Shown here in pieces: positions 21,670 through 34,005 of a stretch of 64,000 nt of DNA. Numbering within the stretch: position 1 is the stretch's first letter; each line of letters opens with the position of its first letter. The stretch spans positions 1 through 64,000 of the forward strand of contig NZ_SDID01000002.1 of the NCBI RefSeq assembly GCF_009192995.1, written 5' to 3'. The notes beneath the pieces were generated by a model. It saw nothing but the letters and a program-made list of their open reading frames with translations. It searched no databases and had not been told where the DNA came from. This DNA is from Sulfurimonas indica. GTDB lineage: Bacteria; Campylobacterota; Campylobacteria; Campylobacterales; Sulfurimonadaceae. Both the position numbers and the translations under genes were made by a program.

Positions 21670-21696
21670 GACGACCAACACACCAGGGAGGTCGTC
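21670..21696 (+). terminator. Hairpin after the 78-residue gene
   Basis: GACGACC (21670-21676) pairs with GGTCGTC (21690-21696) across a 13-base loop, directly after the stop. It lacks a T-run, so it is a weak intrinsic terminator or an mRNA-stabilising stem. Confidence 0.45.
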
Positions 21697-22076
21697 TATG
21701 AGTGTAATAATACCCTACTAATCTTAAAAAAATCCATCCTTTCTATGAATTACTAAAAACTTAATTTTATTCTCTTAAATAAAATTATAATGCTAAAAAA
21801 ATTACAAAATTTTTCTAAAATGTGTATTATTCACACAGTGTTCTAACTTGTGAATATCATATTGTATTTTTTCAAATAAATTACTAAATTTTTTTCTTTT
21901 TTAAGAAATTATTTATATAAATAATAACTGAAAGTAACATTACAAATTTCTTCAGAACTCTCTAAAGCCCTATTTTTAGGGATTCTTAATTCAGTGAAAA
22001 AAAATCACTCATAAAGAGCATAATTTTTATTATTTATATAAAAAGTTATTCACATTGATGCCTAAAAACTGAGCAA
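21697..22076. other. AT-rich intergenic region with a DnaA-box cluster
   Basis: About 380 bases without a gene, between two convergent genes. It has three DnaA-box-like sequences: TTATTCACA at 21827-21835, TGTGAATA (minus-strand TATTCACA) at 21849-21856, and TTATTCACA at 22046-22054. The DNA between them is unusually AT-rich. It could be a DnaA-binding or titration locus, or a secondary origin element. No ORF or RNA gene is apparent. Confidence 0.55.
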
Positions 22077-31345: not shown

Positions 31346-31453
31346 TATTCACTTATGAGAATTCTCTACTATTCACATCTTTTTAACCCAAAATTATGGA
31401 TTTGTAGAGTATTATTCACATATAAATGAATAAACAAGGTTTTTATGTGAATA
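31346..31453. promoter_or_regulatory. DnaA boxes at the dnaA promoter/start (oriC1-like)
   Basis: Box sequences: TATTCAC 31346-31352, TATTCACA 31370-31377, TTATTCACA 31412-31420, and minus-strand TATTCACA at 31446-31453 just inside dnaA. The spacing and the position over the dnaA start suggest autoregulation and, as in Helicobacter, one half of a bipartite origin. Confidence 0.75.
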
Positions 31454-32754
31454 TAGGTCAAGAAGTTTTAGAAGCTCTCAAAGATGAGATAACAGAGATA
31501 GAATATAACCGTTATATCAAACATCTTACATATGACAGTAAAAAATCTACAGGTGATTTGGCAATTTTTTATGCACCAAACGCGCTTGTTGTAAACTGGA
31601 TCAAAAATAAATACAAAGATAAAATAGCACACCTTTTTGAAGTGAAAAACGGCTCAAAGGTTACAGTTCAAATTACACTGAAAAATTCTGTTGAAAAGAG
31701 AAAGAGTAAAAAAGTAACAGAAGTTAAACAAAGTTCTTCACTTCTAAACCCTTCACACTCTTTTGACAACTTTATGGTAGGTGGGTCTAATCAGTTTGCC
31801 TATGCAGCAGTAAAGAGTGCCAGTGAAAATCCTGGAAAAGTTTACAATCCTGTCTTTATCTATGGTGGTGTCGGCCTTGGAAAAACCCACCTGATGCAAG
31901 CAGCAGGGAATGTACTCCAAAATGCAGGTAAAGTTGTTATCTATACAACGGTAGAACAATTTCTAAATGACTTTATCCGTCATGTTCGTAACAAAACAAT
32001 GGAGCGTTTTCAGGAGAAGTACCGTAAGTGTGATGTACTGCTTATCGATGATATTCAGTTTCTCTCGAACAAAGAGGGAATCCAAGAGGAGTTTTTTCAC
32101 ACTTTTGAAGCACTCAAAGGTGCAGGAAAACAGATAATACTCACAGCAGACAAACATCCTAAAAAGATAGGTGGCCTTGAAGCAAGACTGCAGAGCCGTT
32201 TTGAGTGGGGACTTGTAGCTGACATTCAACCACCGGAGTTAGAGACAAAAATTGCCATTATCAAGAAAAAATGTGAGATAAACAAAGTAAAACTCTCTGA
32301 AGATATCGTTAATTACATTGCAACAGTCATTGAGAGTAATGTACGTGAGATAGAGGGAATTTTATCAAAACTCCATGCCTATTCACAACTGATGCATGTT
32401 GATATCGATCTGGAATTTACAAAAAATGTCTTAAAAGATCAGATGAATGAAAACCGTGAAAATCTTACAATGGATAAAATCACACAGGTTGTTGCAAAAG
32501 ATTTAAATATCAAACCAAGTGAGATTCGTTCCAAAGGGCGTAGTAAAAATATAGTCTATGCACGCCGCATCTCTATCTATATCTGCCGTGAGCTGACACA
32601 AAACACTATGCCACAACTTGCACAATACTTTGGTATGAAAGATCATACTGCCATCAGTCATACCATCAAAAAAATCAATGATCTCATCAAAGATGATGAG
32701 GACTTTAGAGTAAAAATAGAAGAGTTAACAAACAAAATAACAGCTTCTTCTTAA
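31426..32754 (+). CDS. dnaA: Chromosomal replication initiator DnaA
   Basis: A 442-residue AAA+ initiator. Domain I is residues 1-85, a short linker follows, and Walker A GGVGLGKTH is at 147-155 with Walker B LLIDDIQFL near 206. Domain IV carries the DNA-binding signature as GMKDHTAISHTIKKI (near 402-416), where E. coli has GGRDHTTVLHACRKI. This divergence fits the TATTCAC-type boxes around the gene. DnaA boxes stand upstream, at the start and downstream. dnaN and gyrB follow. Confidence 0.98.
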   Translation: MNKQGFYVNIGQEVLEALKDEITEIEYNRYIKHLTYDSKKSTGDLAIFYAPNALVVNWIKNKYKDKIAHLFEVKNGSKVTVQITLKNSVEKRKSKKVTEVKQSSSLLNPSHSFDNFMVGGSNQFAYAAVKSASENPGKVYNPVFIYGGVGLGKTHLMQAAGNVLQNAGKVVIYTTVEQFLNDFIRHVRNKTMERFQEKYRKCDVLLIDDIQFLSNKEGIQEEFFHTFEALKGAGKQIILTADKHPKKIGGLEARLQSRFEWGLVADIQPPELETKIAIIKKKCEINKVKLSEDIVNYIATVIESNVREIEGILSKLHAYSQLMHVDIDLEFTKNVLKDQMNENRENLTMDKITQVVAKDLNIKPSEIRSKGRSKNIVYARRISIYICRELTQNTMPQLAQYFGMKDHTAISHTIKKINDLIKDDEDFRVKIEELTNKITASS

Positions 32755-32937
32755 GTTTTGTCGCAAAAAGTTTAAAAAAAAAGATATAATTGTAAAAGTG
32801 AATAGATGTGAAAGCTACTTCAGTGCTTCATCACATCAAAAAGTATGCTGTATCAAGGGTTTGAGTAGAGTTTTCACCTATTCACTCCCCCCTACTACTA
32901 CATACTAAAATTATTAAATATAATAGGGATTTAAAAA
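32755..32937. other. oriC: oriC: dnaA-dnaN gap with DnaA boxes, DnaA-trio and AT-rich unwinding region
   Basis: Boxes: minus-strand TATTCAC at 32798-32804 and plus-strand TATTCAC at 32879-32885. The second box is followed by TCCCCCC and then CTACTACTA (32892-32900) and CATACTAAA; on the complementary strand, read 3'-5', these are GAT GAT GAT GTA TGA, the DnaA-trio pattern. AT-rich DNA (32904-32937) follows. This box/GC-run/trio order is the basal unwinding module of bacterial origins. An interrupted hairpin GATGTGA-AAGC/GCTT-ca-TCACATC (32805-32837) lies between the boxes. Confidence 0.85.
32785..32790 (+). promoter_or_regulatory. -10 element upstream of dnaN
   Basis: TATAAT lies 148 bases before dnaN. 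Transcripts from it would cross the origin unwinding region. Confidence 0.5.
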
Positions 32938-34005
32938 ATGAAGATTACTATAGCTAAATCAGTCATAGAAAATATCTTAATTCATGCAGGACCTTTTTTA
33001 GAAAAAAAAGATACTTCACAAATTACTTCTCATGTCTATCTAAATGCTAGTAACTCAAAACTAACTGTTAAAGCAACTGATTATGAGATAGGATTTTGTG
33101 TCTCTACTGATAATATTTCAACTATTGAAGAGGGTACTGTTACTGCTAACGGTAAAAAGTTTCTTGATATTGTCAGAATTTTAAAAGATGGGGATATCAA
33201 TCTTGAAGTTGTTAAAGACACACTTCATATCTCACAAGGCAGTTCAAACTTCAAACTACCGACATTTGCTTACAATGAGTTTCCTGAATTCCCTAGCTAT
33301 GAAGATAAAGCACGTATCTCTATTGAATCGCATACACTTATAGAATCACTCAAGAAAATCACACCGGCAATTGACACAAATAATCCTAAATTTGAACTCA
33401 ATGGTGCACTCATTGATATTAAAACTGATCTTATTAATTTTGCTTCAACAGATACAAGAAGATTGGCTGTTGTAACTGTGAATAACAAAAGTGACAAAGA
33501 ACTCTCTATTATCATTCCTAAAAAGGCTATCATTGAGATCCAAAAGCTCTTTTTTGACAATATTGAACTCTATTATGATGAGACAAATCTTATAATCCAC
33601 TCTGAACAATATACATTCTTTACAAAACTCATCAATGGTAAGTTTCCAGAGTACTCACGTATCATTCCGAAAGAGATAGCACATAACCTGCTTCTTCCAA
33701 AAGCTATAATAATTGATGCACTCAAGCAGATCACAACGATTTCAACAGATGTAAAAATCTCGTTTTTAAATGATACAATCACATTTGAGAGTTTGAGTGA
33801 TGATAATATTGAAGCAAAAACAGAAGTAAACTATCCTACAAATTTTAGTGAGACTTTTTCAATAGCAATCAACTCCAGATACTTGCTAGACTTTTTAAAT
33901 TCTATTAATACTTCGGAATTTACCATAGGTTTAAATGAAGGAAATCTTCCATTTATTCTTCGTGATGAAAACTTCATTACAGTCGTTATGCCAATAGTTA
34001 TTTAA
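32938..34005 (+). CDS. dnaN: DNA polymerase III beta sliding clamp
   Basis: A 355-residue clamp that tethers the replicative polymerase to DNA. The three-domain length and the segments LKATDYEIG-like KATDYEIG, ASTDTRRLAV and INGKFPEYSRIIP are typical. The C-terminus FITVVMPIVI is the clamp's hydrophobic partner-binding edge. It follows oriC and precedes gyrB by about 110 bases. Confidence 0.97.
   Translation: MKITIAKSVIENILIHAGPFLEKKDTSQITSHVYLNASNSKLTVKATDYEIGFCVSTDNISTIEEGTVTANGKKFLDIVRILKDGDINLEVVKDTLHISQGSSNFKLPTFAYNEFPEFPSYEDKARISIESHTLIESLKKITPAIDTNNPKFELNGALIDIKTDLINFASTDTRRLAVVTVNNKSDKELSIIIPKKAIIEIQKLFFDNIELYYDETNLIIHSEQYTFFTKLINGKFPEYSRIIPKEIAHNLLLPKAIIIDALKQITTISTDVKISFLNDTITFESLSDDNIEAKTEVNYPTNFSETFSIAINSRYLLDFLNSINTSEFTIGLNEGNLPFILRDENFITVVMPIVI

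Follow-up and report, generated by a model that had tools for sequence, protein, structure and literature searches.

The window, that is the whole 64-kb stretch of DNA analysed here, carries dnaA (31426..32754, + strand), a 442-aa ORF with 80-95% identity to the genus members with full-length matches, and dnaN (32938..34005, + strand), a 355-aa ORF whose relatives were found by tblastn. A gap of 183 bp (32755-32937) separates the dnaA stop codon (32752-32754) from the dnaN ATG (32938). The gene order is ruvC-dnaA-dnaN and DnaA boxes with a TTCAC core lie on both sides of dnaA, which is the arrangement of the bipartite campylobacterotal oriC. On the upstream side, oriC1 (31346..31453, + strand) comprises TATTCAC boxes at 31346, 31370 and 31413 on the + strand and at 31447 on the - strand, the latter inside the start of dnaA. 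Its conserved element TTAACCCAAAATTATG / TTAACCCNNNNTTATG (31383-31398) is flanked on either side by boxes at fixed distances; counted from the element, these lie at about -11, +32 and +63 in most relatives. In 60 genomes, this element gave 31 matches versus 9 for the control and was nearly always the sole copy per genome.

The GC-skew sign change of a chromosome origin is found at this locus. Calculated from sampled stretches, the skew of the 193-kb contig has a broad local minimum at 18.6-34 kb and climbs steadily from ~34 kb to 193 kb, while a complete relative with dnaA at the start of its contig displays a clear switch at that gene: of the stretches sampled there, 10 of 11 are positive in the first half and all nine are negative in the second. 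The least stable DNA is a stretch of 36 bp from 32902 (only 0.07% of such stretches in the window are less stable), which takes in the AT-rich rest of the DNA unwinding element and the dnaN ribosome-binding region (32908..32937, + strand). In Sulfurimonas denitrificans, P1 nuclease mapping revealed that the dnaA-dnaN gap is unwound in vitro by the species' own DnaA, a trio was noted there, and a DnaA loop between oriC1 and oriC2 was seen by electron microscopy (PMC5043019). In Helicobacter pylori, trios and boxes are both required for opening in vitro and for viable cells in vivo (PMC8235120, PMC8287927). Taken together, the GC skew, the unwinding and looping in S. denitrificans and the requirement for trios and boxes in H. 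pylori make the identification of the gap as an origin near certain. With high confidence, we assign it to oriC2, the half of a bipartite campylobacterotal chromosome origin at which unwinding takes place, equipped with a basal unwinding system (BUS) of boxes, spacer and DnaA-trios. As a kind, the element is not new, since unwinding and a trio in the same gap have already been shown in S. denitrificans (PMC5043019). No relatives of this dnaA were found in viral contigs, and Rfam returned no match above threshold, the weak matches in dnaA (antisense AsdA, OppA thermometer) staying below curated scores.

A prior sequence-only reading had proposed this gap as the probable start of strand opening, and this view is supported by the conserved spacing described below, by the GC skew, by the lowest helix stability at 32902 and by the P1 mapping in S. 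denitrificans. Of the two outcomes named beforehand as refuting it, a skew switch at another place and a lack of conserved box and trio spacing among relatives, neither was observed. As a description of the origin it was incomplete, as it missed box d (32871-32877), the outward boxes at 32798 and 32808, oriC1 and the break in the trio register.

Elsewhere in the window, TATTCAC is over-represented (26 matches vs 10.7 expected), partly because of the origin boxes and of a site at 21.8-22.1 kb. At 21828-21856, in a non-coding gap ~10 kb before dnaA, two facing DnaA boxes stand in an exact 29-bp frame, TATTCACACAGTGTTCTAACTTGTGAATA. By manual count, this frame with a similar centre is present in 41 of 60 genus genomes, and it lies ~7-16 kb from dnaA in contigs carrying both. 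The site may serve DnaA titration or recycling, in the manner of datA or DARS. Just before it lie ~62 nt (21671-21732) with a hairpin GACGACC...GGTCGTC, conserved at 84-97% identity in many genomes of the genus where this stretch was matched alone. It has no match in Rfam and lacks a long ORF. This stretch is possibly a small RNA or a leader of no known family.

DnaA boxes and fixed spacing in oriC2

Two DnaA boxes in the first half of the gap point away from the unwinding site. Box a (32798..32804) reads TATTCAC on the - strand, and the TTCAC core of box b (32808..32812), also on the - strand, follows at 10 bp; their GTGAA and GTGA letters are invariant in 32/32 genus gaps, and the 10-bp spacing recurs across the order in many further families. 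Upstream of them, after an A-tract, GATATAAT (32783..32790, + strand) is a -10-like element directed at dnaN. It is present in all 32 genus gaps, one of which reads GATATACT. Its promoter activity is a prediction, and a scan with the sigma-70 consensus called no -35/-10 pair at this place.

The second half is organized around a tandem pair on the + strand. Box d (TTTTCAC, 32871..32877) is the upstream partner, at the position of B. subtilis box 6 and H. pylori ts1, and box e (TATTCAC, 32879..32885) is an R1-type, trio-proximal box at the position of B. subtilis box 7 and H. pylori ts2. Their TCAC starts are 8 bp apart in 32 of 32 genus gaps. Box e is separated from the trios by a C-rich spacer, TCCCCC (32886..32891, + strand), within which begins a C-run at 32887-32892. 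As scored, this spacer measures 6 nt in 28 of the 32 gaps, 3 nt in three of them (with an extra in-phase ATA) and 5 nt in the remaining one, which agrees with the conservation in relatives that the sequence-only reading had proposed to check. Pooled genus spacers have 54% G+C, with 48% C versus 6% G. A BUS calls for a DnaA box at most 16 bp from the trios and pointing at them, here box e with its 6-nt spacer, and commonly, although not obligatorily, for a tandem upstream box, here box d.

The distances between these elements are rigid. Box d lies 91 nt from GATATAAT in 29 of the 32 genus gaps, 90 in two and 92 in one, and these 32 distinct gaps were collected by dnaA, not by the GATATAAT, box or trio motifs. 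The DNA between the elements has freely diverged, and the flank towards dnaA ranges over 4-41 nt versus 27-31 nt for the one towards dnaN. Such fixed spacing is suggestive of one phased protein scaffold. The same layout was found by pattern search in reference genomes of Sulfurovum, Sulfuricurvum, Hydrogenimonas and Nitratifractor; since the pattern required both outward boxes (a and b) and GATATAAT along with a TCAC further downstream, this set (from which four chance matches were removed) is uninformative on the frequency of those elements. A looser conserved TAGGG-like element was also observed at 32850-32862, ~20 nt ahead of box d, in columns 72-75 of the ungapped alignment.

Box b is linked to a weak facing box c (~32831) by an inverted repeat, GATGTGA ... 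TCACATC (32805..32837, + strand), a possible hairpin or cruciform with a fold of -12.3 kcal/mol (z -2.76 versus shuffles). With GATATAAT just upstream, the repeat may form a hairpin in the dnaN leader or may simply be two facing boxes. A function as hairpin, whether in the leader RNA of dnaN or in origin DNA that is single-stranded or supercoiled, would account for the stable folds, for the pairing kept in GACGTG/CACGTC, AGCGTG/CACGCT and AGTGTG/CACACT, and for G-T being commoner than A-C at one pair (11 vs 5 loci). Covariation was supported at two pairs in a shuffle test. However, it is suggestive only, as few independent paired changes are counted on the tree, where the sign test is not significant. 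Moreover, several species have lost the repeat and its core pairs coincide with the cores of the DnaA boxes, so that we consider a functional hairpin doubtful.

The trio tract and the break in its register

Directly downstream of the spacer, three in-register DnaA-trios, (CTA)3 or CTACTACTA (32892..32900, + strand), read 3'-GAT-5' three times on the other strand and are immediately followed by CATACTAAAAT. Across 101 loci, 75 of them slipped and 26 in register (both forms are described below), they hardly vary. They provide the three consecutive trios with the conserved middle base (3'-NAN-5') that a BUS needs at least. The sequence-only reading was exact in its coordinates, such as 32879-32885 for TATTCAC, and the C-run, the three CTA units and the AT-rich DNA that it named are found beyond the box. 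Its proposal of GAT GAT GAT GTA TGA as DnaA-trios was right for the letters and for the first three trios, while GTA and TGA lack the conserved middle base in that frame and the register is recovered only by skipping one base, as GAT GAT GAT [G] TAT GAT.

Could a CTA repeat lie beside a DnaA box by chance, without any role in replication? By itself, CTACTACTA is not rare, with 0.41 occurrences expected per 64 kb. However, the 2.09-Mb genome has a single instance of box, spacer and three CTA combined (0 for a reversed-pattern control), and the position and spacing of this combination are conserved in many species. Among 60 genus genomes, 34 carry the box followed by 6 nt and (CTA)3 NN TACTA, and 13 carry the same with (CTA)3 N TACTA. 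Each of these 47 genomes has one copy and never both forms, with zero control matches. The strict patterns leave the other 13 genomes unmatched, of which at least one (G020/L002) differs solely by its spacer length and several are incomplete assemblies. Coincidence is hardly conceivable in view of this conservation, which already refutes it. Searching the whole order for the slipped pattern, with the box left out, proved too loose for use. Besides, trio tracts with a middle G were noticed in two gaps, L045 (CTA CTA CGA CTA CTA) and L050 (CTA CGG TTA CTA). They are natural cases of the cytosine-for-adenine swap in trios that has been reported to be functional (PMC10721633).

After the third trio, the register is broken. 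Two unconstrained bases, CA (32901..32902, + strand), one of which is an extra nucleotide, display entropies of 1.42 and 1.77 bits between invariant blocks. They precede TACTA (32903..32907, + strand), a second block that provides trios 4 and 5 shifted by 1 nt. This slipped form, (CTA)3 followed by two free bases and TACTA, was collected from 75 distinct loci of Sulfurimonadaceae and Sulfurovaceae, and TACTA itself is found in 72 of them. In the in-register form (26 loci), (CTA)3 is followed by one free base and T[AG]YT[AT], which makes five trios in phase. The uninterrupted tract of about five trios that is typical of a BUS, although not required, is thus replaced here by three trios, 1 nt and two trios. 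No compensation for the break is given by the spacer ahead of the trios in the genus gaps. Slipped tracts are present in both families and may have arisen once or twice. The 65 slipped and the 23 in-register tips of a dnaA tree, mostly metagenome assemblies and with eleven trio labels assigned by eye, require at least six changes, four of which are forced by well-supported branches.

Such a conserved break is unexpected under strict three-nucleotide stepping, because a 1-bp register-shifting deletion slowed unwinding in B. subtilis, where a 3-bp deletion did not (PMC6669920). One explanation is that only the first three trios are functional and that TACTA owes its conservation to something else, such as a part in a dnaN promoter or its helical instability. 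The minimum set in the BUS search is indeed three trios, a number taken from B. subtilis, and TATAAT-like runs are found just downstream. However, the second block sits 1 or 2 nt from trio 3 versus 27-31 nt from dnaN; this tighter tie to the trios than to dnaN argues against TACTA being only a promoter part. In addition, the in-register relatives carry ordinary trios at the same place (ATA CTA, TTA CTA, CTA CTA, CTG CTA). We consequently regard a restriction of function to the first three trios as rather unlikely. The second block would presumably be read by DnaA as trios. It is possible, although somewhat less likely than not, that DnaA of Sulfurimonadaceae and Sulfurovaceae takes the tract as blocks of 3 + 2 over a skipped nucleotide, the filament having a flexible joint after its third protomer and not a strict three-nucleotide step. 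We think that either a joint is tolerated after three protomers, or three trios open the DNA and the last two serve as a second or auxiliary contact.

Proposed origin opening and known systems

DnaA binding, looping and opening can be projected by analogy with S. denitrificans, H. pylori and B. subtilis onto these conserved parts and their fixed spacing. DnaA on the tandem boxes d and e would be guided over the C-rich spacer onto one strand, each protomer holding one trinucleotide (3'-GAT-5'), and the DNA would open from 32892 towards dnaN. The outward boxes a and b, together with oriC1, probably keep the remainder of the DnaA complex in place, with dnaA looped out. In this lineage, the first three protomers would be in register, and trios 4 and 5 would then be reached by skipping one nucleotide.

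Strict three-nucleotide stepping, as measured in B. subtilis, is the basis of the trio model. A natural 1-nt break, repeatedly gained or lost while boxes, spacer and DnaA are otherwise shared, offers a ready-made experiment on the rigidity of the filament on single-stranded DNA, and it also bears on the number of protomers required for origin opening. Besides, the near-gapless alignment of ~100 origins provides a full site map of campylobacterotal oriC2. A text search combining trios and Campylobacterota retrieved no paper; since published trio figures for the class are in supplements, others may already have seen the register break.

Among the closest known systems is that of S. denitrificans. 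By its description, the oriC1-dnaA-oriC2 of that species shares the ruvC-dnaA-dnaN locus with boxes flanking dnaA on either side, the TTCAC core, and a trio and DnaA-dependent opening in the gap, whereas neither a register break nor a scaffold of fixed spacing is mentioned in the text consulted (PMC5043019). Footprinting there did not confirm binding to the predicted head-to-tail box pair (PMC5043019). Campylobacter jejuni oriC likewise unwinds in the dnaA-dnaN gap after twin boxes, but it is monopartite with a degenerate trio, and no GC-rich spacer is reported there (PMC6052347). DnaA- and ATP-dependent strand separation requiring boxes and trios has been shown for H. pylori and others (PMC8287927). 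The oriC2 of H. pylori has the tandem boxes ts1/ts2, a GC-rich spacer, about five trios and an AT-rich region in common with the present one; in contrast, five perfect consecutive trios are counted there, and boxes a and b face outward here (PMC8235120, PMC8287927). Finally, the BUS of B. subtilis likewise has a box pair, a spacer and trios, the latter read on the same strand and in the same polarity as here, with a TCCAC box core versus TTCAC here (PMC6669920, PMC10721633). Another difference lies in the register, as a shift of 1 bp slows unwinding in B. subtilis (PMC6669920), whereas a shift of 1 nt after trio 3 is the usual state in the origins described here.
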